Source: Actinomycetospora sp. NBRC 106375
GTDB taxonomy: Bacteria; Actinomycetota; Actinomycetes; Mycobacteriales; Pseudonocardiaceae
Direction: 5' to 3'
Length of the DNA: 64,000 bases
Assembly (NCBI RefSeq): GCF_030269665.1
Contig: NZ_BSTS01000023.1
Span: 1-64,000, forward strand
The notes under the pieces were generated by a model. The model saw only the letters and a list, made by a program, of their open reading frames with translations. It did not search any database and was not told the origin of the DNA. The position numbers and the translations under genes were made by a program. Below are positions 14,771 through 50,205 of this stretch, piece after piece (positions within the stretch are counted from its first letter, which is position 1; every line of letters starts with the position of its first letter).

Positions 14771-14820
14771 CGTACGTGAGCAGTTGGCGCCCCCATGAGG
14801 GCGCCAACTGCTCACATACG
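14771..14820. repeat. Dispersed palindrome type A, copy A1
   Basis: Left arm CGTACGTGAGCAGTTGGCGC plus CC and a right arm of the same length pair with one mismatch around the loop CCATGA. The outer arms (TGAGC/GCTCA) are shared with type B elements, and the inner stem AGTTGGCGCCC defines type A. This copy lies after the formate dehydrogenase operon and before the permease. Its strong hairpin could act as a terminator, but other copies sit inside genes. Confidence 0.85.
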
Positions 14821-14860
14821 GCCGGGCGGAGGTGCGGTCGGCGTGTGACGATCGGCGATC

Positions 14861-15934
14861 GTGACGGACGGAGCGATCGGTGCGCGGCGGGCCGGTCCGC
14901 CGGCGTGGGCGGTGGCGGTCGGGTTCGGGGCGCTCGTCGTCGCCGGCCTGCTGTGGGCGAAGTGGGCGCCGTACTGGGTGAAGGTGCCGTCCGTGGCGGG
15001 CTCCCACTCGCTCGGCTCGTCGATCCTCACCGGCGGTGCGTCCGCGCCGCCCGGGGTGTCGCTGTCGGCCGGCCTGCGGTTCGCGGGGACCTACTTCCTC
15101 GCGATCTGGCCGGCGCTCGTCGTCGCGCTCGTCCTGGCCGCGGCGGTGCAGACGGTCCTGCCCTCGGCGTGGCTGCGCCGGGTGCTCGGCCGGGGCGTGA
15201 GCGGCGGGGTGCGCGGGGGCGCGCTGGCGCTGCCGTCCCTGATGTGCACCTGCTGCGCGGCGCCGATCGCCGTCGGGCTGCGCCGTCGCGCGGCGGACCT
15301 GACCGCGACGCTCGCCTACTGGCTCGGGAACCCGGCGCTGAACCCGGTCGTGCTCGTGTTCTGCGCGTTCGTGCTGCCGTGGGAGTGGACGCTGCTGCGG
15401 GCGGTGGCCGGTGTCGCGGTCGTCGCGGCGGCGGTGGTGCTGGGCCGCCGGTGGGCTTCCCGGTCGCCCACGGGCTCCGTCGTCGAGGAGCCCGTCGTCG
15501 GGGACGCCGTTCCCGACGAGCGACCCCTGGTCGTGCGCTTCCTGGCCGCGCTGGGCGGGCTGTCGGTCCGGTTGCTGCCCGAGTACCTGCTGCTCGTCGT
15601 GGCGCTCGGGGCGTTCCGCGGTGTGCTGTTCCCGGTCGCGGCCCCGTGGCTCACGGGCACCGGGCTCGTGCTGGGCGTCCTGCTGCTGGCCGTGGCCGGG
15701 ACGCTGCTACCGATCCCGACGGGCGCCGAGATCGCCGTCGTGGCGGCGCTGCTGGCCGTCGGCGTGTCCGGCCCGCTCGCGGCCGCCCTGCTGATCACCC
15801 TGCCGGCGGTGAGCCTGCCGTCGCTGCTGATGGTCCGCCGCGCCTTTCCCCGCCGGCTGCTGGTGGCGGTCACGGGAGCCGTCGTCGGGATCGGGGTGCT
15901 GACGTCGGTGGTGGCGCTGGCTGTCGGCCTGTAG
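14861..15934 (+). CDS. Permease of the ArsP/DUF318 (PF03773-like) family
   Basis: A 357-residue membrane protein with two bundles of helices separated by a charged loop near residues 195-215. The motif LPSLMCTCCAAPIAVGLRRR and the later LPIPTGAEIAVVAALLAVG are typical of the permease family that includes ArsP; the adjacent cysteines may bind soft metalloids. It lies between the formate dehydrogenase operon and selA on the same strand, so a role in selenium or metalloid transport is plausible but inferred only from position. GTG 14861 is the start. Confidence 0.78.
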   Translation: MTDGAIGARRAGPPAWAVAVGFGALVVAGLLWAKWAPYWVKVPSVAGSHSLGSSILTGGASAPPGVSLSAGLRFAGTYFLAIWPALVVALVLAAAVQTVLPSAWLRRVLGRGVSGGVRGGALALPSLMCTCCAAPIAVGLRRRAADLTATLAYWLGNPALNPVVLVFCAFVLPWEWTLLRAVAGVAVVAAAVVLGRRWASRSPTGSVVEEPVVGDAVPDERPLVVRFLAALGGLSVRLLPEYLLLVVALGAFRGVLFPVAAPWLTGTGLVLGVLLLAVAGTLLPIPTGAEIAVVAALLAVGVSGPLAAALLITLPAVSLPSLLMVRRAFPRRLLVAVTGAVVGIGVLTSVVALAVGL

Positions 15935-27882: not shown

Positions 27883-29826
27883 GTGCCCGAGCCCGTCGAG
27901 CCGGAGCTCGCCGAGCTCGCCACCGCCCACGGCATCGCCGTGCGCTACCGCGACAGCAGTGAGCAGGAGGTCGAGGTCGACCGCGGCGTCGTCGTCGACG
28001 TCCTCTCTGCGCTCGACGTCGACGCCACCACGCCGCCGGCGCTCGCCGCGGCCCTGGCGGCGGTGCGCTCCGCGGACCCCGGGCGTCTCCCGCCGACGTT
28101 GGTCGTCGACACCGCTCGGTCGCTGCCCTTCGCCGGGACCGTCGTGCTCGAGGACGGCGGGGAGCGCGCGGTGGGCACGACCCTGCCCGCGGACCTGCCC
28201 GTCGGCTACCACCGCCTGACCGGCGGCGACCGGGACGTCACCGTGATCGTGCCCCCGCCGCGCCTGGAGCCACCTCCACCGACGTGGGGGTGGATGGTGC
28301 AGCTCTACGCGCTGCGCTCGCCGGGGTCGTGGGGGTGCGGGGACTACGCCGACCTCGCCTCGCTGCTCGCCCGGACCGCGGACGAGCAGGGCGCGGGGGC
28401 GCTGCTGGTCAACCCGCTGCACGCCCTCGCGCTGGCGCCGCGCGTGGAACCGTCGCCGTACTCGCCGTCGAGCCGGCGGTTCCTGCACCCGCTCTACGTG
28501 CGCGTGGAGGACACGGCGGCCTACGCGGCGGCGCCCTCGTCGGTGCGCTCCTCGGTCGCGGGGCTGCGGCCGGCGTCGGCGGACCTGGTGGACCACGACG
28601 CGGTGTGGGCGGCCAAGCGGACGGCGCTGGAGCTGCTGGCGCCGTACGCGTCGTCCTTCCCCCGCGACCTCGACGCGCTCGACCCCGAGCAGCGGGACGT
28701 CGCCACGTGGTACGCGCTGGCCGAGCGCCACGGCAGCGACCTGCATGAGTGGTCGGCCGACCTGCAGCACGTCGACGACACCGGCGTGGCCGCGGCCCGG
28801 GCCGAGCTGGCCGACCGCGTGCTGTTCCACGCGTGGTGCCTCGACCTCGCCGACGCGCAGCTCGCCACGGCGCACGAGGCCGCCGGCGGCATGGCCGTCG
28901 GGCTGATCGCCGACCTCGCGGTCGGGTGCTCGGCGGGCGGCGCGGACGCGTGGACGCTGGCCGGGGCGCTGGCCCGCGGGGTGACCGTCGGCGCCCCGCC
29001 CGACGACTTCAACCAGCAGGGCCAGGACTGGGCGCTCCCGCCCTGGCGGCCGGACGCGCTCGCGGCCTCGGGGTACGCCCCGCTGCGCTCCATGATCCGC
29101 GGGGTGCTGCGCCACGCCGACGGCCTGCGCGTCGACCACGTCGCAGGGCTGTGGCGGCTGTGGTGGATCCCGCCGGGCCGGGGGGCGCGCGAAGGCGCCT
29201 ACGTGCACTACGACGCGCGGGCGATGCTCGCGGTGGTGGCGATCGAGGCGTCGCGGGCCGGGGCCGTGGTGGTGGGCGAGGACCTGGGAACCGTGGAGCG
29301 GGAGGTCACGTCCGGGTTGGCGGACCACGGCATGCTCGGGTGCGCGGTGATGTGGTTCCAGCGCTCCGACGACGGCGCACTGCTGCCGCCGCGGCACTGG
29401 CACCCGGAGACGCTGGCGTCGGTGTCCACGCACGACCTGCCCACGGCGGCCGGGTTCCTGCGCGACGAGCACGTGCGCGCCCGCGCCGAGGCCGGCGTGC
29501 TGACCGACGTCGACGCGGCCTACGCCGATGCGGCACGGGATCGCGCCGAGCTGCTGGAGCTGCTGCGCGCCGAGGGGTTCGCGGTGGACCCGTCCGATCC
29601 CGACGCCGTCGTCCTGGCGATGCACCGGCTGCTGGCGACGGCGCGCTCGCGGATCGTGCTCGCGGCGTTCACCGACGTCCTCGGCGACGTCCGGCAGCCG
29701 AACCTGCCGGGCACGATCGACGCCTACCCGAACTGGCGCATCCCCCTCTCCACACCCCTCCCGGACCTCCTCGCCGACCCCCGCGTCCGCGCGGTCGCCG
29801 CGGCCCTCGGTGACCGACCCATGTGA
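27883..29826 (+). CDS. malQ: 4-alpha-glucanotransferase (amylomaltase)
   Basis: A 647-residue GH77 enzyme that transfers alpha-1,4-glucan segments in glycogen and maltodextrin metabolism. The catalytic nucleophile region is LRVDHVAGLWRLWWIP, the acid/base region is VVVGEDLGTVEREV, and the third carboxylate is in SVSTHDLPTAAGF. About 130 N-terminal residues form the beta-sandwich domain typical of actinobacterial MalQ. GTG 27883 follows GGGGGA. The last two codons, ATG TGA, lie in the left arm of palindrome B1, so the element provides the stop codon. Confidence 0.94.
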   Translation: MPEPVEPELAELATAHGIAVRYRDSSEQEVEVDRGVVVDVLSALDVDATTPPALAAALAAVRSADPGRLPPTLVVDTARSLPFAGTVVLEDGGERAVGTTLPADLPVGYHRLTGGDRDVTVIVPPPRLEPPPPTWGWMVQLYALRSPGSWGCGDYADLASLLARTADEQGAGALLVNPLHALALAPRVEPSPYSPSSRRFLHPLYVRVEDTAAYAAAPSSVRSSVAGLRPASADLVDHDAVWAAKRTALELLAPYASSFPRDLDALDPEQRDVATWYALAERHGSDLHEWSADLQHVDDTGVAAARAELADRVLFHAWCLDLADAQLATAHEAAGGMAVGLIADLAVGCSAGGADAWTLAGALARGVTVGAPPDDFNQQGQDWALPPWRPDALAASGYAPLRSMIRGVLRHADGLRVDHVAGLWRLWWIPPGRGAREGAYVHYDARAMLAVVAIEASRAGAVVVGEDLGTVEREVTSGLADHGMLGCAVMWFQRSDDGALLPPRHWHPETLASVSTHDLPTAAGFLRDEHVRARAEAGVLTDVDAAYADAARDRAELLELLRAEGFAVDPSDPDAVVLAMHRLLATARSRIVLAAFTDVLGDVRQPNLPGTIDAYPNWRIPLSTPLPDLLADPRVRAVAAALGDRPM

Positions 29827-29864
29827 GCGAAATTCCCGGCTATGGCCGGGAATTTCGCTCACAT
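29821..29864. repeat. Dispersed palindrome type B, copy B1
   Basis: A perfect inverted repeat with 20-bp arms: ATGTGAGCGAAATTCCCGGC (29821-29840), loop TATG, and the exact complement (29845-29864). The outer arm TGTGAGC is shared with type A, and the inner stem GAAATTCCCGGC defines type B. It overlaps the malQ stop codon and would form a very stable hairpin, a likely terminator in this position. Confidence 0.9.
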
Positions 29865-29912
29865 ACCTCGAGTGGCGGATCCGTGGGCGCTCCTGCTGCG
29901 TCGAACCCGGAC

Positions 29913-30485
29913 ATGGACGATCTCGACGACTGGCAACGCCTTCTCCGCGACCAGCACGGCGTGGTGACGCGTGCCCAGCTGCGTGCTCGCGGCATCACCG
30001 ACCACGCCATCCAGGCCCAGCTCGACGCCGAGCGGTGGCAGCGGCTGCACGACGGCGTCTACGTCACCTACTCCGGTCCACCGACTCCTGAGGCGCGGTG
30101 GACGGGTGCACTGCTCGCATGCCGGAGCGGCGCCGTGCTCAGCCACGAGACCGCAGGCGAGCTGCACGGTTTCGTGAAGCCTGAGCGCGGGCGACCCGTC
30201 CACGTCACGGTGCGGTACGGCTGCTCGGCGACACGACTCGACGGTGTCAGGGTCCATCGCTCTCGGGCGTTCGCCCACATCGGTGTCGAGGGGAGCGATC
30301 CGCCCGTCACCAGTCGGGTGCACACCGTGCTGGATCTCGCTGCGGCGGCGCCGGACGGCAAGGAGGCCCTGCGCCGCGCCCATCAGTACGCGCTCGACGC
30401 CGGCGTCCACCCGCTCGCCCTCGCGCGGGCCGTGGAGCTGCGTCGCCCGACCCGTCATCGCCGGGCGATCTGGTACGGCACGTAG
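29913..30485 (+). CDS. AbiEi-type N-terminal domain protein, C-terminally truncated
   Basis: A 190-residue protein with the winged-helix AbiEi_4-like N-terminal domain: LLRDQHGVVTRAQLRARGITDHAIQ, WQRLHDGVYVTYSG and AVLSHETAGELHGF. In intact relatives I recall, this domain is followed by about 100 more residues including a DUF559/endonuclease-like part. Here the frame ends right after ELRRPTRHRRAIWYGT, where it runs into the 3' end of a convergent truncated glycosyltransferase. The end is therefore probably a deletion junction. Activity, if any, would be DNA-binding/antitoxin-like; toxin partner not seen. Confidence 0.75.
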   Translation: MDDLDDWQRLLRDQHGVVTRAQLRARGITDHAIQAQLDAERWQRLHDGVYVTYSGPPTPEARWTGALLACRSGAVLSHETAGELHGFVKPERGRPVHVTVRYGCSATRLDGVRVHRSRAFAHIGVEGSDPPVTSRVHTVLDLAAAAPDGKEALRRAHQYALDAGVHPLALARAVELRRPTRHRRAIWYGT

Positions 30486-33122: not shown

Positions 33123-33133
33123 ACGCGGGCCCG

Positions 33134-33823
33134 TCACGGGTACGAGCCCTCCTCCGACGAGGTGACGACGAGCTCGCGGACCTCGCTGCCCGCCGGCCGC
33201 GACAGCGCGTAGAGCACGGCGTCGGCGGTCTGGGCGGGGTCGTTGAGCTTGGCGTCGGCGCCGGGCTTGTACTGGTCGGGGCGGTCGTCGAAGAAGTGGG
33301 TCCACATGCCGCCGGGGACGAGCAGCGTCACCCCGACCCGGCCCGCGGTCTCGGCGGCGAGCGCGCGGGTGAAGCCGACGACGCCGAACTTCGACGCGCA
33401 GTAGGCGGTCGCGTCGGACACGGCCTTGACCCCGAGCGTCGAGGAGACGGTGACGACCTTGCCGCGGCGGGCCTCGAGCTCGGGCAGCGCGGCGCGGACG
33501 ACGGCGGCGGTGCCGAGCAGGTTCACCGCGACGACGCGGTCCCACTCGCCCGGGTCGACGTCGACGAGGCGCCCGCAGCGGTCGATGCCCGCGGCGGTGA
33601 CGACGGCGTCGAGCCCGCCGACCTGCTCGCTCGCGCGGGCCACGGCGGACTCGGCGGCGCGGGTGTCGGCGAGGTCGACCTCGACGAAGGCGTGCCCCGC
33701 GTCGGGGGCCTTGAGGTCGAGCACGACGGGGGTGCCGCCCTGCACGGCGACGGCGTCGGCCACCGCGGCGCCGAGGCCGGACGAGCCGCCGGTGACGAGG
33801 ACGGTGCCGGGGTTGCTGGTCAT
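33134..33823 (-). CDS. Short-chain dehydrogenase/reductase
   Basis: A 229-residue classical SDR. The cofactor motif TGGSSGLG is at residues 11-18, the NAG-type loop appears as TAAGIDRCG, and the catalytic Ser/Tyr/Lys are in VSSTLG and AYCASKFG. This size and motif set is that of NAD(P)-dependent alcohol/keto reductases, not the larger extended SDR HldD that epimerises ADP-heptose. ATG 33823 overlaps the second HldE-like gene's stop, so it is part of the glycan operon and may act on a nucleotide sugar intermediate. Confidence 0.87.
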   Translation of the reverse strand: MTSNPGTVLVTGGSSGLGAAVADAVAVQGGTPVVLDLKAPDAGHAFVEVDLADTRAAESAVARASEQVGGLDAVVTAAGIDRCGRLVDVDPGEWDRVVAVNLLGTAAVVRAALPELEARRGKVVTVSSTLGVKAVSDATAYCASKFGVVGFTRALAAETAGRVGVTLLVPGGMWTHFFDDRPDQYKPGADAKLNDPAQTADAVLYALSRPAGSEVRELVVTSSEEGSYP

Positions 33824-35217
33824 GGGGTTCCTCCAGAAGTGACGGGGTCGGTCTCCAGGCGCGCCAACAGCCGCGTCGACGACCGACCGGCGTGGTACGG
33901 GACGGCGACGACCTCCCCGCCCCAGCTGTGCACCAGCGGGGTCTCGAGCAGCTCGTCGGTCGCGTAGTCGCCGCCCTTGACCCAGACGTCGGGTCGCAGG
34001 CGGTCGAGCACCGCGCGCGGGTCGTCCTCGTCGAACACCTCGACGGCGTCGACGGCGGCGAGCGCGCGGAGCATCTCGGCGCGGTCGGCCTCGCTGACCA
34101 CGGGCCGGTCGGGGCCCTTGAGCCTTCGCACCGAGGCGTCGGAGTTGAGGCAGACGACGAGCGCGCCGTCCTCGCCGGCGAGCGCTCGCGCGGCGGCGAG
34201 GGTGCGGGCGTGCCCGGCGTGCAGCAGGTCGAAGCAGCCGCCGGTGGCGACGACCGTGGCGCCGCGGGCGCGGGCGGCGGCGACGGGGTCGGGCGCCTCG
34301 TCGGTCCCGGGTGCGTCGAGCGCCCCGGCACCTCCGGCGGCCACGAACGCCGCCGCGGCGGCGACCGCCTCCCCCACCGCGTCGTCGACCGCCGAGCCCT
34401 CGGCCAGCGCGACCGCGACGCTCGCCGCGAAGCGGTCGCCGGCGCCGCAGGGGTCGCCGCCGCGGGCGGGCGCGGCGGGCACGACGGACGTGCCCGTGGC
34501 CGCGCGCAGCACCGCGCCCTCGGCGCCCGCGGTCACGGCGACGGCGTCCACGCCCCAGTGCTCGCGCAGCGCCTCCCCGAGCGCGGCGGGCTCGGCCGGG
34601 AAGGTATGTGAGCGGAATTCCCGGCCATAGCCGGGAGTTCCGCTCACATACCCACGGGCCTCGGACAGGTTCGGGGTCACGAGGGTGGCGCCGGGGACGG
34701 GCGGGGCGCCGTGGGGGTGCGGGTCCCAGACGACGGGCACGCGCGTCGCGGCCTCGCTCAGCGCCGCGCGGACCGCCGGGTCCGCGGTCATCCCGCGCCC
34801 GTAGTCCGAGACCAGCACGACGCCCGCGCCGGCGATGGCCTCGACCATCGCCGACGACATCGCGAACGGGCCCAGCCCGCCGTCGTCGACCCGCAGGAGC
34901 ACGCGGTCGTCGGCGATCATCCGGGTCTTGGTCGGGACGGTGCCCTCAGCGGTCGCGGCGACCACGTCGACCCCGGGCAGCAGGGCACCGACGGGATCGC
35001 CGGGACCCAGCACCGTCACCAGCCGCACCGGCCGCTCGGTGCTCCGGGCCGCGAGCAGCGCCGTGAGCCCGGCGCCGCCGGGGCGTTCGCGACGCTCCGC
35101 GGCGCCGAGCACCGGGGCGGGCGCGTCGGGACAGAGCTTCTCCACGTCCCCGACCACGTCGACGTCGCGCAGGCAGTCGCCGACGACCACGATCGAGCCG
35201 CGGGTCCGCGGGCTCAC
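33820..35217 (-). CDS. Bifunctional HldE-type heptose kinase / adenylyltransferase, copy 2, with in-frame palindrome insert
   Basis: A 465-residue paralogue of the 31054-32583 protein. The kinase domain runs SIVVVGDCLRDVDVVGDVE to RGGDPCGAGDRFAASVAVAL, and the adenylyltransferase domain has ATGGCFDLLHAGHARTL and LKGPDRPVVSEADR. Between LVTPNLSEA and PAEPAALG, where the kinase fold has a surface connection, residues YVSGTPGYGREFRSHT are encoded exactly by palindrome B2 (34604-34651, 48 bp). The reading frame is kept, so the protein may tolerate the insert. GTG 35217 overlaps the gmhA stop, and both catalytic domains look intact. Confidence 0.9.
   Translation of the reverse strand: MSPRTRGSIVVVGDCLRDVDVVGDVEKLCPDAPAPVLGAAERRERPGGAGLTALLAARSTERPVRLVTVLGPGDPVGALLPGVDVVAATAEGTVPTKTRMIADDRVLLRVDDGGLGPFAMSSAMVEAIAGAGVVLVSDYGRGMTADPAVRAALSEAATRVPVVWDPHPHGAPPVPGATLVTPNLSEARGYVSGTPGYGREFRSHTFPAEPAALGEALREHWGVDAVAVTAGAEGAVLRAATGTSVVPAAPARGGDPCGAGDRFAASVAVALAEGSAVDDAVGEAVAAAAAFVAAGGAGALDAPGTDEAPDPVAAARARGATVVATGGCFDLLHAGHARTLAAARALAGEDGALVVCLNSDASVRRLKGPDRPVVSEADRAEMLRALAAVDAVEVFDEDDPRAVLDRLRPDVWVKGGDYATDELLETPLVHSWGGEVVAVPYHAGRSSTRLLARLETDPVTSGGTP
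34604..34651. repeat. Dispersed palindrome type B, copy B2, inside coding sequence
   Basis: Arms GTATGTGAGCGGAATTCCCG plus GC (34604-34625) and a 22-base right arm (34630-34651) pair with a single mismatch around loop CATA. Total length is 48 bp, exactly 16 codons, and it lies in the open frame of the second HldE-type gene. This makes it an insert within a protein-coding gene rather than a terminator. Confidence 0.9.
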
Positions 35218-35813
35218 GGGACGAGCTCCTCGGCGGCGACCCGCGGCGCACGGGTCAGCGCCTTGTCGACCATCTCGCACAGCAGGTGCACCGTGACGAG
35301 GTGCGCCTCCTGCACCGAGGGGGTCGCGCCGGGCAGGCACAGCGCCTCGGTGGCGGCGGCCGCGAGCGGGTTGGGGCCCGGCCCGGTCAGCGCCCAGACG
35401 GTCAGCCCGAGCGCGCGGGCGGCCTCGGCGGCCGCGACGAGATTGGGGCTCGACCCGCTCGTCGAGAGCAGGACGAGGAGGTCGCCCGGCCGCCCGTGCG
35501 CGCGGACCTGACGGGCGAAGACCTCCTCGTAGCCGTAGTCGTTGCCCAGCGCGGTGACCGTCGACGTGTCGGCGTGCAGCGCGATCGCCGAGAGCGGCTC
35601 GCGCTCGCCGCGGTAGCGCCCGACGAGCTCGGCGGTGAGGTGCTGGGCCTCGGCGGCGCTGCCGCCGTTGCCCGCGGCGAGCAGACGCGCGCCGCGGCGC
35701 AGGCGGTCGGCGATCTCGCCGCCCCACCGCTCGATGCGCCCGGACTCGCCGGCGAGCCCGTCGAGCGTGGCGCGCAGCCCGCCGAGGTGCTGGTGGACGA
35801 TCTCGACGCTCAT
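35214..35813 (-). CDS. gmhA: Sedoheptulose-7-phosphate isomerase
   Basis: A 199-residue SIS-domain isomerase. The sugar-phosphate motif LLAAGNGGSAAEAQHL, TALGNDYGYEEVF and LVLLSTSGSSPNLVAAAE are hallmarks of GmhA, which makes D-glycero-D-manno-heptose 7-phosphate from sedoheptulose 7-phosphate, the first step of ADP-heptose synthesis. The catalytic Glu/His pair is in EAHLVTVHLLCE. ATG 35813 overlaps the glycosyltransferase stop (ATGA), and the end overlaps the second HldE-like gene. The order of steps is therefore gmhA, hldE, with gmhB at 39.4 kb. Confidence 0.94.
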   Translation of the reverse strand: MSVEIVHQHLGGLRATLDGLAGESGRIERWGGEIADRLRRGARLLAAGNGGSAAEAQHLTAELVGRYRGEREPLSAIALHADTSTVTALGNDYGYEEVFARQVRAHGRPGDLLVLLSTSGSSPNLVAAAEAARALGLTVWALTGPGPNPLAAAATEALCLPGATPSVQEAHLVTVHLLCEMVDKALTRAPRVAAEELVP

Positions 35814-38289: not shown

Positions 38290-38303
38290 CGGCGAGGTAT
38301 TGG

Positions 38304-38337: not shown

Positions 38338-38340
38338 CTA

Positions 38341-39959: not shown

Positions 39960-40112
39960 GGGTGCCGGTGCTCCGCAGCGCCGTGAGCCCGCCGTGTGGT
40001 GCCGACCGGGCTCGGTTTGTGGTCAGGGGCCCCGGGTACACGCCGGGAGACCGGAGCCTCGCCGGTTCGTCCTCGGCCCCGAGCGGGCGTGACCGACCTG
40101 GAGGAAGCCCTC

Positions 40113-40634
40113 GTGATCCGCCCCCTGCCACCCGAGAACCGGGGACCGGTGGCGTTGCGTGACGTCGAGGTGCGGGTGCTGGCGGTCCCCGAGGCGCTGG
40201 TCACCGTGCGCACCGTCGCCGGCGATCTCGCCGCGCGCGCCGAGTTCCCCCTCGACACGGTCGACGACCTCAAGCTCGCCGTGGACGAGGCGTGCACCTG
40301 CCTCGCCGACATCGCCCGGCCCGACACCCGGCTCACCGGCACGTTCAGCGTCGACGAGGACGGCATCACGATGACGGTGTCGGTCTCGACGCTCGGCCCG
40401 ATCTCGCTGCCCACCGACACGTTCGCGTGGCGCGTGCTGACGGTGCTCGCCGACGACGTCCGCGTCCTCGCCGAGGCCCCCACCGAGCCCGGCGGCGCGC
40501 ACCGGCTCGCGCTGCGGATGACCCTCGACCGGCCCGCGCTGGTGCCGCGCGGGGACACCGGGATCGCCGACGACGCCGAGGAGCTCGCCGCCGTCGCCTC
40601 CTTCCCCGCACGCCCCGGGGCCCCGGCTCCGTGA
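40113..40634 (+). CDS. RsbW-like anti-sigma factor, second copy
   Basis: A 173-residue GHKL-type anti-sigma factor, a paralogue of the 21517-22023 protein: VRVLAVPEALVTVRTVAGDLAARAEFPLDTVDDLKLAVDEACT and PTDTFAWRVLTVLADDVRVL align well. GTG 40113 is chosen because GGAGGAA lies six bases upstream; an earlier GTG at 40089 lacks a site. The stop overlaps the sigma factor start (GTGA), so it probably inhibits that sigma factor. A STAS protein at 32727-33122 is the nearest antagonist candidate. Confidence 0.87.
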   Translation: MIRPLPPENRGPVALRDVEVRVLAVPEALVTVRTVAGDLAARAEFPLDTVDDLKLAVDEACTCLADIARPDTRLTGTFSVDEDGITMTVSVSTLGPISLPTDTFAWRVLTVLADDVRVLAEAPTEPGGAHRLALRMTLDRPALVPRGDTGIADDAEELAAVASFPARPGAPAP

Positions 40635-41608
40635 CACCGGCCGGCTCGCCCGACCCCACCGACCCGCGCGCCCTGGCGCGACCCGCCGATCCCACGGATG
40701 TGAGCTCGATCGACGCCATGACCGACACCGCCGGCGTGACCGGTACGCCGACCGCCGACGGTGCTGCCCCGGAGCGCGACGGCACCCCCGCCACGACACG
40801 CGAGACGACGCGCGAGACCACCGGCAGCACCGGGCGCCGCAGCGGCTCGCGGGGCGAGTACGACCACCTGATGCCGAAGCTCGCCGAGCACGCCGCGCTC
40901 GAGAAGGGCACCGCCGAGCGCCGGCGCCTGCGCGACGAGCTGGTGCGCGGGCACCTGCCGGTCGCCCAGCACATCGCGCGGCGGTTCTCCCGGCGTGGCG
41001 AGCCGGAGGAGGACCTCGAGCAGGTCGCCACCCTCGGCCTGATCAACGCCGTCGACCGCTACGACCCGGCCCGCGGCACCGACTTCCTGTCGTACGCGGT
41101 GCCGACGATCACCGGCGAGGTCCGCCGGCACTTCCGCGACCAGGCCTGGTCGATGCGCGTACCGCGCCGGCTCAAGGACCTCAACGTCACGCTGTCCTCG
41201 GCGATGTCGCAGATGTCGCAGACGCTGGGCCGCGCGCCCAACGCCGCCGAGCTCGCCGAGCACCTCGGGATCGCGAAGGAGGAGGTGCTCGAGGCCCTCG
41301 AGGCGTCGAACGCCTACCGCAGCGGGTCGCTCGACGAGATGCTCGTCGACGACCCGGACTCGGGCACCGTGTCCGACCTGCTCGGCGAGGCCGACGCGGC
41401 GCTCGACCAGGTCGAGTACCAGCAGTCGCTGGCCCCGTTGCTCGAGAAGCTCCCCCAGCGCGAGCGCACGATCATCAAGCTTCGCTTCTTCGGGAACCTG
41501 ACGCAGTCGCAGATCGCCGAGCAGGTCGGGATCTCGCAGATGCACGTCTCGCGGCTGCTCGCCAAGACCCTCGCCCAGCTGCGCGAAGGACTCGGCGACG
41601 CCCGGTGA
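40631..41608 (+). CDS. SigB/SigF-family sigma factor, second copy
   Basis: A 325-residue sigma factor. The first about 75 residues are Thr/Arg-rich and low-complexity; the rest closely parallels the 20684-21520 protein: HIARRFSRRGEPEEDLEQVA, LINAVDRYDPARGTDFLSYA, VPTITGEVRRHFRDQAW and RTIIKLRFFGNLTQSQIAEQVGISQMHVSRLLA. GTG 40631 is used; ATG 40718 would drop the low-complexity leader. Its end overlaps the heptosyltransferase-like gene by four bases, so sigma factor and glycosyltransferase are co-translated, an unusual arrangement. Confidence 0.92.
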   Translation: MTPAGSPDPTDPRALARPADPTDVSSIDAMTDTAGVTGTPTADGAAPERDGTPATTRETTRETTGSTGRRSGSRGEYDHLMPKLAEHAALEKGTAERRRLRDELVRGHLPVAQHIARRFSRRGEPEEDLEQVATLGLINAVDRYDPARGTDFLSYAVPTITGEVRRHFRDQAWSMRVPRRLKDLNVTLSSAMSQMSQTLGRAPNAAELAEHLGIAKEEVLEALEASNAYRSGSLDEMLVDDPDSGTVSDLLGEADAALDQVEYQQSLAPLLEKLPQRERTIIKLRFFGNLTQSQIAEQVGISQMHVSRLLAKTLAQLREGLGDAR

Positions 41609-42540
41609 GAGCCGTCGTCCTGCGCGACCTCGGCCTCGGTGACCTGCTCGTCGCCGTCCCCGCGCTGCGCCTGCTGCGCCGCGCCCTCCCCGATCACGAG
41701 ATCACCCTCGTCGCCCCGGCCGCCCTGTCCCCGGTGGTGGCGCGCATCGAGGCCGTCGACTCCCACGTGAGCAGTTGCGGGCCCTCTAGGGGCGCCAACT
41801 GCTCACATACGGCGGTCAACCTCCACGGCAAGGGGCCGGAGAGCCACGCGCGGTTGGAGGCCCTGGAGCCGGCGGTCCGGATCGGGCACGCCGCACCGGG
41901 CTGGGACGGGCCGTCGTGGGTCGACGACCCGACCGTGCCCGAGCGCCGGCGCTGGACCGACCTGCTCGCCGCGACCGGGCTCGTCTCCCCCGGGGACGCC
42001 CGCGACGGCGCCGACGACCTCGCCCTGCCCGGCCGCCGCGCCGTCCCCGGCGGGCCGGTCGTCGTGCACCCCGGCGCCGCGTACGGGTCCAAACGCTGGC
42101 CGCCCGAACGCTTCGCCGCGTGCGCGGCGGCGCTGCACCGGCGGGGCCGGGCGGTCGTCGTCACCGGCGGCACCGACGAGCGCCGGCTGACCGCCGAGGT
42201 CGTGGCCCGTGCCGGCCTGCCCGCCGACGCCGACCTCGGCGGGCGCACCGACCTCGCCGGCCTGCTCGACCTCGTCGCCGCCGCCTCGCTCGTCCTCGCC
42301 GGCGACACGGGCGTCAGCCACGTCGCCACGGCCTTCGGCACGCCGTCGGTGACGCTCTTCGGCCCGGTGCCCGCGACGCAGTGGGGCCCGCCGCCCGGCG
42401 GCCCGCACGTCGTCCTCGGTGACGACACCGCCCGGCGCGGCGAGCGCTTCGCCGCTGACCCCGACCCCGCCCTGCTCGCCGTCACGCCCGACCAGGTGCT
42501 CGCCGCGATCCCCTCCCCGGCCCGCGCCGTTCCCGCCTAG
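41605..42540 (+). CDS. Family 9 glycosyltransferase with in-frame palindrome insert
   Basis: A 311-residue GT9 heptosyltransferase-like protein: VVLRDLGLGDLLVAVPALRLLRR at the N-terminus, AVNLHGKGPESHARLEAL, VVVHPGAAYGSKRWPPERFA and LVLAGDTGVSHVATAFGTPSVTLFGP at the donor site. Between RIEAVDS and AVNLHGKG the residues HVSSCGPSRGANCSHT are encoded by palindrome A2 (41764-41811, 48 bp). In relatives I recall, a short loop leads directly to xVNLHG, so the 16 residues are an addition. GTG 41605 overlaps the sigma factor stop. Catalytic motifs are preserved. Confidence 0.9.
   Translation: MRAVVLRDLGLGDLLVAVPALRLLRRALPDHEITLVAPAALSPVVARIEAVDSHVSSCGPSRGANCSHTAVNLHGKGPESHARLEALEPAVRIGHAAPGWDGPSWVDDPTVPERRRWTDLLAATGLVSPGDARDGADDLALPGRRAVPGGPVVVHPGAAYGSKRWPPERFAACAAALHRRGRAVVVTGGTDERRLTAEVVARAGLPADADLGGRTDLAGLLDLVAAASLVLAGDTGVSHVATAFGTPSVTLFGPVPATQWGPPPGGPHVVLGDDTARRGERFAADPDPALLAVTPDQVLAAIPSPARAVPA
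41764..41811. repeat. Dispersed palindrome type A, copy A2, inside coding sequence
   Basis: CGTGAGCAGTTG on the left pairs with CAACTGCTCACA on the right with one mismatch. The inner part (CGGGCCCTCTAGGGGCGC) has drifted from the perfect type A stem. The 48-bp unit is in frame in the GT9 gene (16 codons) and contains no stop in that frame. Confidence 0.82.
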
Positions 42541-42551
42541 CATCACCCTCC

Positions 42552-43370: not shown

Positions 43371-43422
43371 AATCACGTCACACCACGCTGCCGAGACCTC
43401 CGGCACGGGGTAGGCAGGACCC

Positions 43423-44301: not shown

Positions 44302-45671
44302 ACCTCCGGCTCACGCACCCGGCCGGGCACGCACGCCCCCGCCACCGCGCCCGCCGCGACGATGGCCGCGCAGGCCGCCATCGCGGGCACGAACCCGGCG
44401 AGGAACTCCGCGGGGCTCCCGTAGCCGCCGCGCGGCGCGAACACCGCCACGAGCACGGCGAGCCCGAGGACGCCGCCGAGCTCGCGCAGCGTGCTGTTGA
44501 CGCCGACGGCCTTCCCGACGTCGTCCGGCCCGAGCCCACCGAGCACCGCGTTGGCGGCGGCCGGCATGGCCAGCGAGCCGCCGATGCTGGCCACGACGAA
44601 GCCCGGGACGAGGTCGCCGTAGGACAGGGCCGGCGCCGCGACCGCCACCCACGCCAGCCCCAGCGCCGTGAGGGCGAGGCCGACGGTCAGCGGCAGGCGG
44701 TTGCCGATCCGGTCGGCGAGCATCCCGCCGACCGGCCCGAGCACGAACAGCGACGACGTCCACGCCATGAGCCCGAGACCGGTCTGCAGCGGCGAGAAGC
44801 CCAGGCCCACCGACAGCAGCTGGCTGAAGAAGAACAGGCCCCCGAACACGGACACGAACAGGCCGACCGTGGCGAGGTTGCCGGCGACGAAGCCGGGCGC
44901 GCGCACGAGGCGCCCGGGCAGCAGGGGCAGGTCCGCGCTGCGCTGGCGGACCACGAACGCGCCGGCCAGGACGACCGCGGCGGCGAGGGCCGCCAGCACC
45001 TCGGCGGACATCCAGCCCGCGACGTTGCCGCGGGTCAGGGCCCAGACGACGCCGAGCGCGGCGCCCGCGAGCAGCACCACGCCGGGCGCGTCCATCGTCG
45101 CGTCGCCGCCGCGCGACTCCGGGACGACCGCGAGCACGAGCGGCACGACGACGAGCCCGATCGGCACGCCCGGCCAGAACACGAACTCCCAGCCCACGAG
45201 GTCGGTGACCACGCCGCCGAGCCCGGGGCCCGCCAGCACCGCGAGCCCGGTGACGCCCTGGAGCACGCCGAGCGCGCGGCCGCGGTGCTCGGGCGGGTAG
45301 GCGGCGCCCACGATCGTCATCCCGAGCGCGGTGCCCGCCGCGGCCCCGGCGCCCTGGACGGCCCGCGCGACGACGAGCGTGCCGACGTCGGGGGCGAGCG
45401 CGCACGCCGCCGACGCGACGGTGAACAGCACGAGCCCCGCGGTGAAGACCCGCCGGCGCCCGAAGCGGTCGCCGAGCGCGGCGGCGGGCACGAGCAGCAC
45501 GGCGAGGGTGAGGTTGTAGGCGTTCACCGTCCACTCGAGCGACTCGACGCCCGCACCGAGGTCGTGGCGGATGGTGGTCAGCGCGGTGGACACGACGAGC
45601 GTGTCCAGCGCACACATCAGCGAGGTCACCGACACGAGCAGGAGCACCGTGGTGCGCTGTCGCGGGGTCAT
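44283..45671 (-). CDS. MFS transporter, DHA2-type drug exporter
   Basis: A 462-residue transporter with 14 hydrophobic helices. The motif LDTLVVSTALTTIRHDLGAGVESLEWTVNAYNLTLAV and the loop 2-3 motif A (LGDRFGRRRVF) are typical of DHA2 exporters of the EmrB/QacA type, proton antiporters with broad drug/metabolite specificity. ATG 45671 follows GGAGGAGG. It is divergent from the YihY/BrkB-like gene, and palindrome B3 lies in the shared promoter region. Confidence 0.9.
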   Translation of the reverse strand: MTPRQRTTVLLLVSVTSLMCALDTLVVSTALTTIRHDLGAGVESLEWTVNAYNLTLAVLLVPAAALGDRFGRRRVFTAGLVLFTVASAACALAPDVGTLVVARAVQGAGAAAGTALGMTIVGAAYPPEHRGRALGVLQGVTGLAVLAGPGLGGVVTDLVGWEFVFWPGVPIGLVVVPLVLAVVPESRGGDATMDAPGVVLLAGAALGVVWALTRGNVAGWMSAEVLAALAAAVVLAGAFVVRQRSADLPLLPGRLVRAPGFVAGNLATVGLFVSVFGGLFFFSQLLSVGLGFSPLQTGLGLMAWTSSLFVLGPVGGMLADRIGNRLPLTVGLALTALGLAWVAVAAPALSYGDLVPGFVVASIGGSLAMPAAANAVLGGLGPDDVGKAVGVNSTLRELGGVLGLAVLVAVFAPRGGYGSPAEFLAGFVPAMAACAAIVAAGAVAGACVPGRVREPEVQGCRA

Positions 45672-45777
45672 GACCCGTCCTCCTCCGGGAGCGGGCGGGG
45701 TCTCTTCCCCGCCCTGTCCTCGGTGGTGACTCGGTACGATCTCAGGACTCATCGGTCCGTCGGCGATACTTTCGTGG

Positions 45778-45823
45778 TATGTGAGCGAAATTCCCGGCCA
45801 GAGGCGGGAATTCCGCTCACATA
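45778..45823. repeat. Dispersed palindrome type B, copy B3
   Basis: TATGTGAGCGAAATTCCCGG on the left and a matching right arm to 45823 pair with one mismatch and a one-base bulge around loop AGA. This copy lies between two divergent genes (MFS exporter start 45671, next gene start 45886), where a terminator would not be expected. It argues that the family is a dispersed element rather than a terminator class. Confidence 0.88.
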
Positions 45824-45885
45824 GGTCCGGCTGTGACGCCCGCCGGGACCGGTTGTGGGCGCTCGGGTCGGGGTACGCCCGGCCG

Positions 45886-46755
45886 GTGCCCGGAGCCTCC
45901 CTCACCCGCGTGCCCGTGGCCCTCGCCCGGGACGTGGCGTCGACCCTGCGGGGCCGGGACCTCGCCGCCGTCGCGGCCGGGCTGACGTACTTCGCCGGCC
46001 TGGGCGTCGTGCCGTGGCTGCTGCTGGCGGTGTCGGGCGCGGCGCTGATCGGCTCGCCGGAGACCGTCGCCGCCCACCTCGCCGACCTGCGCCTGCTCGT
46101 CCCGCCCGGGATGGGGGCGCGGCCGGTGTACGACGCGCTCGTGCGCGCCGGGCTCGACCTCGGCTCCTGGGGCGCGCTCGTCACGATCTTCCCCGCCACG
46201 TTCTACGGCGAGGGTCTGCGTCGCGCGTGCCTGCGCCTGTCCCCGCGCCGCGACCGCTTCACCGGCTGGCGCGCCCGGCTGGCCCTGCTGCCGCTGGTGC
46301 TCGCCGTCCCCGTCCTCGCGCTCGGCGTGTTCGCCGCCGGGCCGTGGCTCGCCGACCTCGCCGGGACCGGCGGCGTCGCGGGGACCGCCGGCCAGGTCGT
46401 CGTCGCCTTCCACCTCTCGTGGCTCGCGATCGGCGCGGTGCTGGCGTGGGGGTTCCGCGTCGTCGCGCCGGGCGGGCCCGGGTGGGTCGCCACGCTGGTC
46501 GGGGCGTACGGGACGTCGGCGGTGCTCGCCGGCTTCCTGCAGGGGTTCCTGCTCTTCCTCGCCCTGCCCATCGACCTCGGCATCCCGTTCGGCGGGCTGG
46601 ACGTCGTCGGCGCGACCGTCGCCGTCGCGCTGTGGCTGTTCGTGCTGCACGTGCTGCTGCTCGTGGGCTGGGCGACGACCGACGCCCTGGACCGTCGCCT
46701 GCGGGGGCGGCAGGAGACGCGGCAGGCCTGGGAGCTGGCCGGGGCGGCGCGGTGA
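45886..46755 (+). CDS. YihY/BrkB-family membrane protein
   Basis: A 289-residue membrane protein with six helices: DLAAVAAGLTYFAGLGVVPWLLLAVSG at the N-terminus matches the YihY/UPF0761 signature, and GSWGALVTIFPATFYGEGLRRA follows. Function is unsettled; family members have been called ribonuclease BN in error or virulence/transport factors. GTG 45886 is preferred over GTG 45910. Stop overlaps the CruF-like gene (GTGA), placing it first in the carotenoid operon. Confidence 0.82.
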   Translation: MPGASLTRVPVALARDVASTLRGRDLAAVAAGLTYFAGLGVVPWLLLAVSGAALIGSPETVAAHLADLRLLVPPGMGARPVYDALVRAGLDLGSWGALVTIFPATFYGEGLRRACLRLSPRRDRFTGWRARLALLPLVLAVPVLALGVFAAGPWLADLAGTGGVAGTAGQVVVAFHLSWLAIGAVLAWGFRVVAPGGPGWVATLVGAYGTSAVLAGFLQGFLLFLALPIDLGIPFGGLDVVGATVAVALWLFVLHVLLLVGWATTDALDRRLRGRQETRQAWELAGAAR

Positions 46756-47600
46756 GCCGGGCGACGCTCACGGCCTCACGCACGCCCCAGCGCCACACGG
46801 GGCGGGCCGCGGAGATCGTGCCCTGGCTGCTCGGCGCCGGGGTGATCGGCGTGCAGATCGCCTTCCCGCTGACCGGGGGCGGGACGCCGGCGATGACGAT
46901 CGCGGCGGTCGTGCTGTTCGCGCTGGCGTCGGTGGGGCACGCGCTGCTCACGCGCGGGCCGGCGGCCGCGGCCGGTCTCGTCGCCGTCGCCGGGGGCGGC
47001 GGGCTGCTCGTCGAGGCCGTCGGGCTCGCGACCGGCCTGCCGTTCGGCGAGTACCGCTACTCCGGCTCGCTCGGCGCCGCGGTGCTCGGCGTGCCACTGG
47101 TGGTGCCCGCGGCGTGGACGATGATGGCGTACCCGGCACTGCTCGTCGGGCGTCGCCTCGGACGGGCGCTCCCGCTGCGCTGGGGGCACCTGACCGCGAC
47201 CGTCCTCGGCGCCTGGGCGCTCGCGACGTGGGACGTCTTCCTGGACCCGCAGATGGTCGAGGCGGGGCACTGGACGTGGCTCGACCCCACCCCCGCCCTG
47301 CCCGGGGTGCCGGGGATCCCGGTGTCGAACTTCGCCGGCTGGCTGCTCGTCGCCGTCGTGATGATCGCCGTGCTGGACCGGCTCCTGCCCGAGCGCCCCC
47401 TCGTCGACGACGGGCTGCCGCTCGTGATGTGGCTGTGGACCTTCCTGTCCTCGACGATGGCCGCGGCCGTGTTCTTCGGGCGGCCCTCGGTGGCGCTGGT
47501 CGGCGGCGTGCTCATGGGCCTCGTGGGCGTCCCCCTGATCGTGCTCCTGCGCCGCCACGGACCGGACCTGCGCCCGCGCGTCCTGCGCCACCGCACGTGA
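46752..47600 (+). CDS. cruF: Carotenoid biosynthesis protein, CruF/DUF422-type
   Basis: A 282-residue polytopic membrane protein of the DUF422 family, to which the gamma-carotene 1',2'-hydratase CruF belongs. Seen features are LPFGEYRYSGSLG, the acidic segment TWDVFLDPQMVEAGHWTW with the conserved DxxLDP, and PGIPVSNFAGWLLVA. It probably hydrates the end of an acyclic carotenoid before glycosylation. Genes overlap on both sides by four bases: the YihY-like gene upstream and a GT2 gene downstream. Synteny with the GT2 and CrtI genes supports a glycosylated carotenoid pathway. Confidence 0.87.
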   Translation: MSRATLTASRTPQRHTGRAAEIVPWLLGAGVIGVQIAFPLTGGGTPAMTIAAVVLFALASVGHALLTRGPAAAAGLVAVAGGGGLLVEAVGLATGLPFGEYRYSGSLGAAVLGVPLVVPAAWTMMAYPALLVGRRLGRALPLRWGHLTATVLGAWALATWDVFLDPQMVEAGHWTWLDPTPALPGVPGIPVSNFAGWLLVAVVMIAVLDRLLPERPLVDDGLPLVMWLWTFLSSTMAAAVFFGRPSVALVGGVLMGLVGVPLIVLLRRHGPDLRPRVLRHRT

Positions 47601-48694
47601 GGGCCGCGGTCGCCGTCGGCACCGCGCTCGCCTGCGCGTCGCTCGGCCTCACCGTCGACAACCTGCGGCGGCTGCGCGTCCCCGACCCGCACACGGCGCC
47701 GCCCCGCGAGCGGGTGGCGGTGCTCGTGCCCGCCCGCGACGAGGAGGACCACATCGGCGCCTGCGTGCGGGCGCTGCGCGCCGCCGTGGACCGGTGGACG
47801 GTGCCGGCCGAGATCGTCGTACTCGACGACGGGTCCCGCGACGCCACGGCCGCCCGGGCCCGCGAGCTCGGCGTCCGCGTGCTCGACGGCGTCCCCCCAC
47901 CACCCGGCTGGCTGGCGAAGCCCTGGGCCTGCCACCAGCTCGCCCTCGCCACCGACGCCGACGTGCTCGTGTTCGTCGACGCCGACGTCGTCGTCGCCCC
48001 GCACGGGCTCGCCGCCACCGTGGACCTGCTGCGCCGCAGCGGGCTCGACCTCGTCTCCCCGCACCCGCGCCAGCACGCCGAGGGCGTCGCGGAGCGCCTG
48101 GTGCAGCCGCTGCTGGCGTGGTCGTGGCTCTCGACGCTGCCGCTCGGGGTCGCCGAACGCTCGGCGCGGCCGTCCCTGACGGCAGCCAACGGCCAGCTGC
48201 TCGCCGTCGACGCCCGCGCCTACCGGTCCGCCGGCGGCCACCCGCCCGGCGACGTGCTCGACGACATCGCCCTGCTGCGGGCGATCAAGCGTGCCGGTGG
48301 CCACGGGGTGATCGCCGACGGCACGGTGGTCGCGTCGTGCCGGATGTACCTGGGCGCGGCGGAGGTGCGCGAGGGGTACGCCAAGTCGCTGTGGGCGGCC
48401 TTCGGGTCGCCGGGGAACGCGGCGGTGGTGCTCGGCCTGCTCCTGGTGACCCACGTCGTGCCCGCGCTCGCGGCCCTGGCCGGCTCGCGGGTCGGGCTGG
48501 TCGGCTACCTCGCGGGCGTCGCGAGCCGGGCGCTGGCCGCGCGGCGCACCGGCTCCCCGGTCGCTGACGCCCTCGCGCACCCGGTGTCGGTGCTCGCGGT
48601 CGGCGCCCTCACCGTCGACTCCTTCCGGCGCCGCCGCGCCGGCACGCTGCGGTGGCGGGGCCGGCGCGTCGAACCCGTCGCGGCGGCCGCGTGA
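47597..48694 (+). CDS. Family 2 glycosyltransferase, CruG-like
   Basis: A 365-residue GT2 enzyme with an N-terminal hydrophobic helix, the donor motif LVPARDEEDHIGACVRAL, VLDDGSRDATAARARELG, the DxD VFVDADVVVA, GHPPGDVLDDIALLRAIKRAG with the acidic catalytic motif, and hydrophobic C-terminal helices. CruG-type enzymes glycosylate the hydroxyl that CruF adds to acyclic carotenoids. Overlaps cruF upstream and crtI downstream by four bases each, so the three genes are co-translated. Confidence 0.87.
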   Translation: MRAAVAVGTALACASLGLTVDNLRRLRVPDPHTAPPRERVAVLVPARDEEDHIGACVRALRAAVDRWTVPAEIVVLDDGSRDATAARARELGVRVLDGVPPPPGWLAKPWACHQLALATDADVLVFVDADVVVAPHGLAATVDLLRRSGLDLVSPHPRQHAEGVAERLVQPLLAWSWLSTLPLGVAERSARPSLTAANGQLLAVDARAYRSAGGHPPGDVLDDIALLRAIKRAGGHGVIADGTVVASCRMYLGAAEVREGYAKSLWAAFGSPGNAAVVLGLLLVTHVVPALAALAGSRVGLVGYLAGVASRALAARRTGSPVADALAHPVSVLAVGALTVDSFRRRRAGTLRWRGRRVEPVAAAA

Positions 48695-50187
48695 CCAGCA
48701 CCGTCGTCGTCGGCGCCGGCCTCGGCGGGCTGGCCGTGGCGGCCCGTCTCGCCGCGGGCGGGCACCACGTGACCGTGCTCGAGGCGTCCTCGTGGGTCGG
48801 CGGCAAGCTCGGCACGGTCGAGGTCGACGGGTTCCGCTTCGACACCGGGCCGTCGCTGGTCACGATGCCCGCGGTGTTCGAGAGCCTGTTCGCCGACACC
48901 GGGGCACCGCTGCGCGACGTCCTCGACCTGCAGCCCCTCGACGTCGCGGCCCGCTACCGCTTCGGCGACGGCGTCGAGCTCGATCTGCCCGGGCGTCGCG
49001 ACGCGATCGGGCCGGCCCTGGACGCCGCGCTCGGCGACGGGGCCGGCGCGCAGTGGGCCTCGTTCCTGCGGCACGCCGAGCGGCTCTGGGAGGTGACGCA
49101 CGAGCCGTTCCTCGAGCGTCCGGTCACCCCCGCGGCCCTCGCCCGGCTGGCGTTGCGGGTGCGTGACCTCGTGACCGTCGCCCCGTGGCGCAGCCTGCGC
49201 GGCGTCGGCGCGCGGCACCTGCGCGACGAGCGCCTCGGGATGCTGCTCGACCGGTACGCGACGTACTCGGGGTCCGACCCGCGCCGGGCGCCGGCTGCGC
49301 TCGCGGTCGTGCCGTACGTCGAGCAACAGTTCGGGTCCTGGTATGTCCACGGGGGCCTGCGGCGGCTCGCGGACGCCGTCGCCGCACGCTGCCGGGCTCT
49401 CGGGGTGGCCCTGCGGACCGGCGAGCGCGTCGTCGGGATCGAGACCGACGACGGACGGGCGTCCGGGGTGCGCCTCGCCTCCGGGGAGCGGGTGGGCGCC
49501 GACGTCGTCGTCGCCAACGCCGACGCGGCCACCGTGTACGGCCCCGGCGGGCTGCTGCCGCACCGCGCGTCGGCCCGCCGCTTGGCCCGGACGACGCCGT
49601 CGTCCTCGGGGTTCGTGCTGCTGCTCGGGCTCGCCGGGCGCGACCCGTCCACCCCGCACCACCGGGTGCTGTTCCCCCCGACGCGGGCGACGTACGACGC
49701 GGAGTTCGACGCGTACCGGGGCGCGTCCCCGGCGGCGGCGCCCGCGGTCTACGTCCACGCGCCCGACGACCCCGCGCTGCGCCCCGACGACGACGCCGAG
49801 GCGTGGTTCGTGCTGGTCACCGCGCCACGCCACGCGCCCGGCCGCGGTGTCGACTGGGACGCGCCGGGACTCGCGCAGCGCTACGCCGACCGGATCCTCG
49901 CGGTGATGGCACGGCGCGGGCTCGACGTGCGCCACCGGATCCGCAGCTGCACGGTCCGCACCCCCGCCGACCTCGAACGCGAGACCCTCTCCCCCGGCGG
50001 CGCGATCTACGGGACGTCGTCCGACGGCGCGCTCGCGGCGTTCCTGCGCCCCGCCAACCGCTCCCCCGTCGACGGCCTCTACCTCGTCGGCGGCTCCGCC
50101 CACCCCGGCGGCGGCCTCCCCCTCGTCACCCTGTCCGCGGAGATCACCGCGCGCCTCGTCCTCTGTCAGCAGTTGGCGCCCCGATGA
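48691..50187 (+). CDS. crtI: Phytoene desaturase family FAD enzyme
   Basis: A 498-residue CrtI-type oxidoreductase. The FAD-binding site is VVVGAGLGGLAVAARLAAGGHHVTVLEAS, followed by GGKLGTVEVDGFRFDTGPSLVTMP and the C-terminal GLYLVGGSAHPGGGLPLVTLSAEITARL. Members desaturate phytoene or oxidise later carotenoid ends. Phytoene synthase is not in the window. GTG 48691 overlaps the GT2 stop. The last eight codons and stop (CCC CGA TGA) lie within palindrome A3, so the C-terminus QQLAPR is not native family sequence. Confidence 0.93.
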   Translation: MTSTVVVGAGLGGLAVAARLAAGGHHVTVLEASSWVGGKLGTVEVDGFRFDTGPSLVTMPAVFESLFADTGAPLRDVLDLQPLDVAARYRFGDGVELDLPGRRDAIGPALDAALGDGAGAQWASFLRHAERLWEVTHEPFLERPVTPAALARLALRVRDLVTVAPWRSLRGVGARHLRDERLGMLLDRYATYSGSDPRRAPAALAVVPYVEQQFGSWYVHGGLRRLADAVAARCRALGVALRTGERVVGIETDDGRASGVRLASGERVGADVVVANADAATVYGPGGLLPHRASARRLARTTPSSSGFVLLLGLAGRDPSTPHHRVLFPPTRATYDAEFDAYRGASPAAAPAVYVHAPDDPALRPDDDAEAWFVLVTAPRHAPGRGVDWDAPGLAQRYADRILAVMARRGLDVRHRIRSCTVRTPADLERETLSPGGAIYGTSSDGALAAFLRPANRSPVDGLYLVGGSAHPGGGLPLVTLSAEITARLVLCQQLAPR

Positions 50188-50205
50188 GGGCGCCAACTGC
50201 TCACA
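50164..50205. repeat. Dispersed palindrome type A, copy A3
   Basis: TGTCAGCAGTTGGCGCCC (50164-50181) and GGGCGCCAACTGCTCACA (50188-50205) pair with one mismatch around loop CGATGA. It lies at the meeting point of the convergent crtI and phosphatidyltransferase genes and holds both stop codons: TGA 50185-50187 on plus and the stop at 50201-50203 on minus. Here it could act as a bidirectional terminator. Confidence 0.9.

Follow-up and report, generated by a model that had tools for sequence, protein, structure and literature searches.

REP-like 40-bp hairpins at gene ends in Actinomycetospora, with stems that may evolve in concert

Introduction

REP-like palindromes are usually explained by a RAYT enzyme that copies them to new places. 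In the portion of Di Nocera 2013 (PMC3733652) used here, REPs tagged with GTAG or CGTC are described as short multicopy hairpins that lie mostly at gene 3' ends, with some inside genes. The same portion states that REP termini often supply the stop codon, that a genome holds several families, that the CGTC type is said to lack a cognate RAYT while the GTAG type has one, and that two Xanthomonas recB genes differ in the REP found at much the same position. The orthoswitch of REPs, as outlined in the part of Nunvar 2013 (PMC3686654) drawn on here, is a change of the REPs flanking a RAYT, after which new copies spread and old ones decay. GC42, a GC cluster of yeast mitochondria, appears in the relevant part of PMC4478555 as a 42-nt palindromic element that proliferates rapidly and is tied to recombination, merger, and shuffling.

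We analyzed a 64-kb stretch of DNA, here called the window, on contig C23 of an Actinomycetospora genome (code G000; 6.79 Mb in 104 contigs). Actinomycetospora is a genus of soil bacteria, and no earlier description of its hairpins was found in the titles and abstract openings of the open-licence literature. As far as the consulted parts of the sources above extend, the hairpins of this genus resemble REPs in having many dispersed copies, a 3'-end placement, a stop codon in the arm, and several families. In contrast to REPs, whose GTAG or CGTC tag is unpaired and whose stems measure 5-13 bp, their outer pairing is perfect, their stem is at least 18 bp, the RAYT-type domain PF01797 was not found, and orthologous sites carry different stems in many species. 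Since neither the tag nor a RAYT was found though the lifestyle is shared, we call the hairpins REP-like. A previous examination of the window without database searches (the sequence-only reading) had likened them to Rickettsia RPEs or ERIC-like repeats, and a likeness to REP- and RPE-type palindromes is supported.

The other systems were compared from equally partial sources. The orthoswitch is similar in that one REP class is supplanted by another within a lineage; in Actinomycetospora, however, it is the same chromosomal site that holds another hairpin, and RAYT was not found. GC42 differs in being mitochondrial and inserting beside an AG target, and the consulted part describes no fixed arm with a swapped stem at fixed sites. 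Rickettsia palindromic elements also lie in frame within genes of varied function (PMC3733652), but intragenic copies are exceptional in Actinomycetospora (two orthologous sites within the DNA analyzed), where gene ends dominate. Integron attC sites have conserved outer arms and a variable self-complementary center, and the Actinomycetospora hairpins share both; in contrast to attC sites, their arms are GTGAGC, and no cassette arrangement was noticed.

A family of 40-bp hairpins

The six palindromes that the sequence-only reading had described were all located in the window (Table 1), and in RNA folding each outperformed all 200 of its own shuffles (z, -5.9 to -12). The unit that they share is 40 bp long and consists of GTGAGC, 12 bases, a 4-base center, 12 bases, and GCTCAC; the left arm of A3, GTCAGC, is mutated from GTGAGC. 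Across 40 elements of the host genome, the flank consensus is CCYAY 5' of the left arm and its complement 3' of the right arm, with A at position -2 in 76 of 80 arms and T (50) or C (30) at position -1. The same flank table showed no unpaired GTAG or CGTC tetranucleotide tag, GTGAGC being paired. Rfam gave five matches in the window, none of them at the hairpins.

Table 1. Hairpins and associated features of the window
Feature	Coordinates	Strand	Description
A1	14776..14815	.	40-bp hairpin between co-directional genes, with stem AGTTGGCGCCCC; outer pairing reaches 14771-14820
B1	29823..29862	.	40-bp hairpin, stem GAAATTCCCGGC, at gene 3' end
Segment beside B1	29865..30470	.	Remaining part of ~1-kb segment; between two hairpins in six congeners, inverted in three
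PfkB/cytidylyltransferase-like coding sequence	33820..35727	-	Contains B2 in frame
B2	34608..34647	.	40-bp hairpin, stem GGAATTCCCGGC, in frame within coding sequence
Glycosyltransferase family 9 coding sequence	41605..42540	+	Contains A2 in frame
A2	41767..41806	.	40-bp hairpin, unlike arms AGTTGCGGGCCC and AGTTGGCGCCCC, in frame within coding sequence
B3	45781..45820	.	40-bp hairpin, arms slightly mismatched, upstream of MFS transporter
A3	50165..50204	.	40-bp hairpin, between two convergent gene ends

The pattern GTGAGCN28GCTCAC has 123 exact matches in the host genome and 0 for the reversed pattern, which bears out the proposal of one family with shared outer arms; the A half-site was found 89 times and the B half-site 35 times (0 in each control). 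The six palindromes are a small share of this larger family, whose number is beyond chance. Two inner stems, as originally proposed, are too few: of the 42 distinct 40-mers of the host genome, 24 are asymmetric, and 11 different inner stems are seen among the symmetric ones.

The other 17 Actinomycetospora genomes hold 31-192 matches to the pattern (reversed-pattern control, 0-3), with different stems in those read. Outside the genus, at least 10 matches (12 to 92) occur in 9 of 241 family genomes, belonging to genera g3, g5, g14, and g48, and the remaining 232 have 0-9 (reversed pattern, 0-4). Where the nongenus copies were read, the 40-bp frame is the same but the stems differ (GTGAGCCTTTTTGGTGGC in G030 and GTGAGCGGCGATGGTCGC in G203, for example); G189, with 12 matches, is doubtful, some of its matches not being palindromic. 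A wider finder, applied to 1.96 Mb from 11 genomes, returned 70 GTG...CAC palindromes, with 6 in the complement control, and their outer arms include GTGAGC, GTGAGT, GTGCGT, and others. There is also a second, long-armed form with the additional outer arms GGTGCGC...GCGCACC. Outer palindromes lacking an inner hairpin were looked for, and none was clear. A 200-kb stretch of G009 showed no elements and no long synteny. GTGAGC was considered as a DNA uptake sequence and rejected because it is not over-represented beyond the hairpins (897 observed and 886 expected outside elements in 1.96 Mb).

The glycosyltransferase encoded in the window has its best relatives in Actinomycetospora records. Congeners are referred to below by code: A. 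chibensis (G002), A. straminea (G005), A. cinnamomea (G006), A. lemnae (G009), A. succinea (G011), A. lutea (G012), A. chiangmaiensis (G014), A. callitridis (G017), strain TBRC 11914 (G010), and a metagenome-assembled genome (G008). Hairpins kept from individual genomes were 35 among the 50 matches listed for G000 (15 left out as not 40 bp long, including two 41-bp A-type and three 37-bp hairpins), 32 among the 33 listed for G017 (70 in all), 23 among the 23 listed for G014 (97 in all), and 49 among the 51 listed for G030 (72 in all), where two were left out as not palindromic.

Placement relative to genes

The absence of any dominant placement had been implied, and this is not what was found: 43 of the 70 elements touch gene 3' ends, compared with 4.1% of 38,000 random 40-mers, and 17 of those 43 lie between two convergent ends (random draws, 0.32%). 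These counts were made with a simple GC3 gene caller, whose gene calls are approximate. Gene ends are the main location and not the only one, with 16 elements falling within coding sequences as called (A2 accounting for 8, B2 for 7, and B3 for the last one) and 11 belonging to no placement class. In a separate count of 106 elements, the TGA at offset 1 of the arm is the stop codon of 52 gene ends. Within the window, the TGA of B1 (29824-29826) ends a 4-alpha-glucanotransferase gene on the + strand, and that of A3 ends the gene on the - strand.

The individual placements given for A1, B1, A3, A2, and B2 stand, including the in-frame location of the last two inside coding sequences. B3 lies upstream of an MFS transporter, and because the MFS domain begins downstream of it, at residue 191 of the 638-residue open reading frame covering B3, this frame is probably over-extended. 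The genes that contain A2 and B2 are conserved. Their reading frame stays open through A2 in all nine species read there and through B2 in all eight, and the hairpins encode peptides of about 13 residues that diverge strongly among species (e.g., VSGTPGYGREFRS and VRDLLSYSSEDHA).

Their position at gene ends suggests that the hairpins probably serve at the ends of transcripts from either strand, with no U-tract involved. A scan for intrinsic terminators (hairpin plus T-run) gave 0 sites in 29001-49000, the span that holds four of the six hairpins, and as no U-tract terminators were found there, the transcript-end role is one that we infer.

Orthologous sites and their occupants

The main comparison comprised six short-armed sites of one region, namely, A2, A3, B1, B2, B3, and B1', in 9, 9, 7, 8, 2, and 6 species, respectively, B1' being a second hairpin about 1 kb from B1 that was not found in the window. 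It is a comparison between species in which sites, and not events, are the unit. A2 and A3 are each occupied by a hairpin in 9/9 related species with data, and B2 is occupied in 8/8, by exactly 40 bp in each (the G008 contig ends before B2; the hairpin is imperfect in G009). A hairpin is present at B1 in seven species, with differing stems. In the more distant G010 and G014, no hairpin was found at A2 or B2. Comparison of relatives had been suggested as a check for presence and absence, and differences do occur at A1, which is absent from the five congeners alignable there, and at B3, which is present in G011 with another stem and absent from G017; no clean empty site proving insertion was found. 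The best empty-site pairs were rejected as proof of insertion because they resemble deletions between short repeats. The same check had allowed for one palindrome being retained in all relatives, and its outcome is mixed: A2, A3, and B2 are occupied in every related species with data, yet not by the same palindrome. The ideas of exchangeable centers and of an exchange rule thus gain support, the same site holding different hairpins in different species.

One explanation for shared positions is that these are hot target sites, at which each species has gained a hairpin independently. The common CCYAY flank could be such a target, and the sites are located where insertion is tolerated. Against this, no related species with data is hairpin free at A2, A3, or B2; at B2, moreover, all eight species have exactly 40 bp at one and the same base within a coding sequence. 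Repeated excision followed by re-insertion at the same base may accommodate this, but on balance we find hot targets an unlikely account.

The contents of the sites are a different matter from their positions. Median inner identity of orthologous hairpins is 0.61 with flanks at 0.84 (137 pairs); it is also 0.61 for hairpins of different sites and species (604 pairs) and 0.75 for hairpins within one genome (79 pairs). When species were permuted within sites, 0 of 2,000 permutations reached the within-genome mean. In 13 comparisons from the three closest species pairs, the flanks are 0.80-0.96 identical and the inner parts 0.29-0.89. The clearest case is G005, in which A2, B1, and B2 share one identical 40-mer and B1' is one base off; in the sister species G009, A2, B1, and B1' hold a stem unrelated to it (inner identity, 0.29-0.39). 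At the six short-armed sites, then, the position is inherited across species, and the stem differs between them and is closer to hairpins found elsewhere in its own genome. The outer arm also varies at some orthologous sites (GTGAGC, GTGAGT, or GTGCGT).

On a species tree built from the flanks of A2, B2, and A3, the number of family switches required by parsimony fell from 23 through 22 and 19 to 8 as the family definition was coarsened; an earlier tree, biased by an inverted segment in the flanks, gave 8, 20, 22, and 23 from coarse to fine. The coarse count of 8, in which linked families are pooled, can be taken as a safe bound. Families were defined by average linkage because chaining under single linkage reduced them to 4 and then to 1. 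Families GAAATTCCCGGC, GAACTTCGGGGC, and GATCTTCTGAGC, among others, are joined by intermediates, so that fast substitution may explain part of the difference. As even the closest species pairs differ by about 7-12%, the order of events is beyond the reach of this comparison.

Long-armed sites

Five further orthologous sites, mostly long armed, were added later and stand outside the six-site statistic. There, the same stem is kept in four of four close-pair comparisons (0.82-0.96), and three comparisons of more distant species differ (0.29-0.36). Over all 11 sites, identity is 0.61 for orthologous pairs, 0.46 for pairs from different sites and species, and 0.50 for same-genome pairs, from which it follows that the short-armed and long-armed forms do not mix. 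The stems kept at the long-armed sites imply that exchange is confined to the short-armed form or is much slower elsewhere. Fast exchange is thus shown for the short-armed form in the region examined only, and the five further sites weaken the general claim. No transfer from a donor to a recipient hairpin was observed directly.

Inversion and possible intermediates

Compared with G000, G012, G005, and G009, three species (G011, G017, and G006) carry the segment of about 1 kb that separates B1 from B1' in inverted orientation, and the ends of the alignments fall at hairpins. At least two inversions are required on the tree. DNA between two hairpins has therefore inverted at the hairpins. At A3 in G009, a distance of 59 bp separates two hairpins that belong to different families. 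Hairpins with two different arms that are both present elsewhere in the same genome number 1 of 42 in G000, where the hairpin is A2, 3 of 33 in G017, and 1 of 24 in G014. The adjacent pair and the mixed-arm hairpins are possible exchange intermediates.

In G000, G017, and G014, the two arms of one hairpin match each other far better than random pairs do; G030 is contrary, with identical arms in 2 of 49 hairpins and 5.7 expected. Such internal matching would be produced by fast local evolution, in which point mutation and arm-to-arm template switching keep a hairpin symmetric and nothing is copied between loci. Small steps do connect several stems under single linkage, and close pairs do keep their family at long-armed sites. 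Independent mutation, however, cannot yield the one 40-mer found at three G005 sites or the one found at three G006 sites, and the within-genome likeness lies above every permutation. A purely local process is accordingly improbable.

Enzymes and mobile elements

PF01797 was found in 0 of 18 genus genomes and in 5 of 14 control genomes. This result bears on the proposal that a RAYT (a Y1/HUH transposase) moves the hairpins as REP elements, new copies arising at gene ends while old ones decay. The likeness to REPs in size, hairpin shape, location at 3' ends, and supply of stop codons speaks for a RAYT, as do the species-specific stems, and an ancient RAYT may since have been lost. Neither the domain nor the GTAG/CGTC tag was seen, though, and insertion elsewhere with decay would not by itself account for a different stem appearing where a hairpin already stood; we consider a RAYT origin improbable as well, to about the same degree as local evolution.

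The reverse transcriptase domain RVT_1 was not found in 14 of 18 genus genomes and was found in the other 4, in one of them below the cutoff; reverse transcription is an unlikely driver of the hairpins. Searches of viral contigs gave 0 matches for the A half-stem and 0 for the GTGCGT half-stem, A1 had no match in plasmids, and B1 had none in phages. That the hairpins are species-specific binding sites, tracking the changing specificity of a protein that recognizes the stem, would agree with the dominant stems peculiar to each genome read and with the nearly constant unit length but is very improbable, since a single genome holds several unrelated stems (11 symmetric types) and the hairpins lie at gene ends and within genes, not at promoters.

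Discussion

We put the probability that these are REP-like 40-bp hairpins of gene ends which evolve in concert in Actinomycetospora at roughly 0.5. Recombination or template switching at the hairpins is the favored driver. Under this mechanism, hairpins would cause forks to stall or DNA to break, and a repair event or template switch would enter and leave via the short shared arm, so that the inside of a resident hairpin would be overwritten with a copy of the inside of another. Each genome would consequently drift toward its own set of stems, and whole hairpin copies would occasionally be gained or lost. It is from sequence comparison that we infer the copying itself, its direction, and the use of the arms as entry points.

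More tentatively, an unrecognized exchange process of Actinomycetospora, carried out by a dedicated enzyme or by template switching at forks, might overwrite the insides of 40-bp hairpins via arms of 5-8 bp. Such a process would keep the hairpins largely symmetric and would rewrite, in each species, many gene ends and the in-frame peptides of at least two enzymes.

The differing stems at orthologous sites in many species set these hairpins apart from known REPs, insofar as the latter are covered by the parts of the literature cited above. At short-armed sites, position and content are apparently inherited separately, and no RAYT was found. This makes concerted evolution testable in very short repeats, 40 bp long with shared edges of 5-8 bp, and offers a natural system for the study of hairpin-driven template switching. 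The finding also carries a caution, as the stems of gene-end hairpins can outpace their surroundings in change while their structure is retained. In the organisms themselves, the loops of two enzymes are rewritten together with the hairpins.

Hairpin forms and their apparent turnover

In the window's genome, contig C3 opens (stretch L020, 1-150) with a sequence that is followed directly by the right-hand half of a type A hairpin, type A being one of the inner-stem types of the 40-bp palindrome GTGAGC-N28-GCTCAC; it looks as if this sequence had been inserted close to the hairpin's centre. The sequence was found at six places, the majority of them contig ends, and is probably an unassembled insertion sequence.

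In a long-armed form, the 40-bp hairpin is flanked by GGTGCGC...GCGCACC, and the stem is conserved between close species, namely, A. chibensis and A. callitridis (stretches L219-L228 and L275-L284) and A. straminea and A. lemnae (L285-L294). Where, at loci of these two pairs, a hairpin is present in one species and absent from its sister, it looks to have been lost via deletion between short repeats.

In the g14 genome G030, from outside Actinomycetospora, arm differences close to the loop were commoner than expected from random pairing, the reverse of the Actinomycetospora pattern; the comparison covered 49 hairpins among the 51 matches listed.

Features of the window and 37-bp hairpin variants elsewhere in the genome
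Feature	Location	Strand	Remark
16S rRNA gene, start portion	window 1-306	-	at left edge
Selenocysteine tRNA	window 9325-9416		upstream of iron-sulphur protein gene
Iron-sulphur protein gene	window 12719-13753		selenocysteine tRNA upstream
37-bp hairpin variant	contig C1, 184289, 488366, 553476		GTGAGC arms as in 40-bp form; stems close to GATCGCTCCGCT
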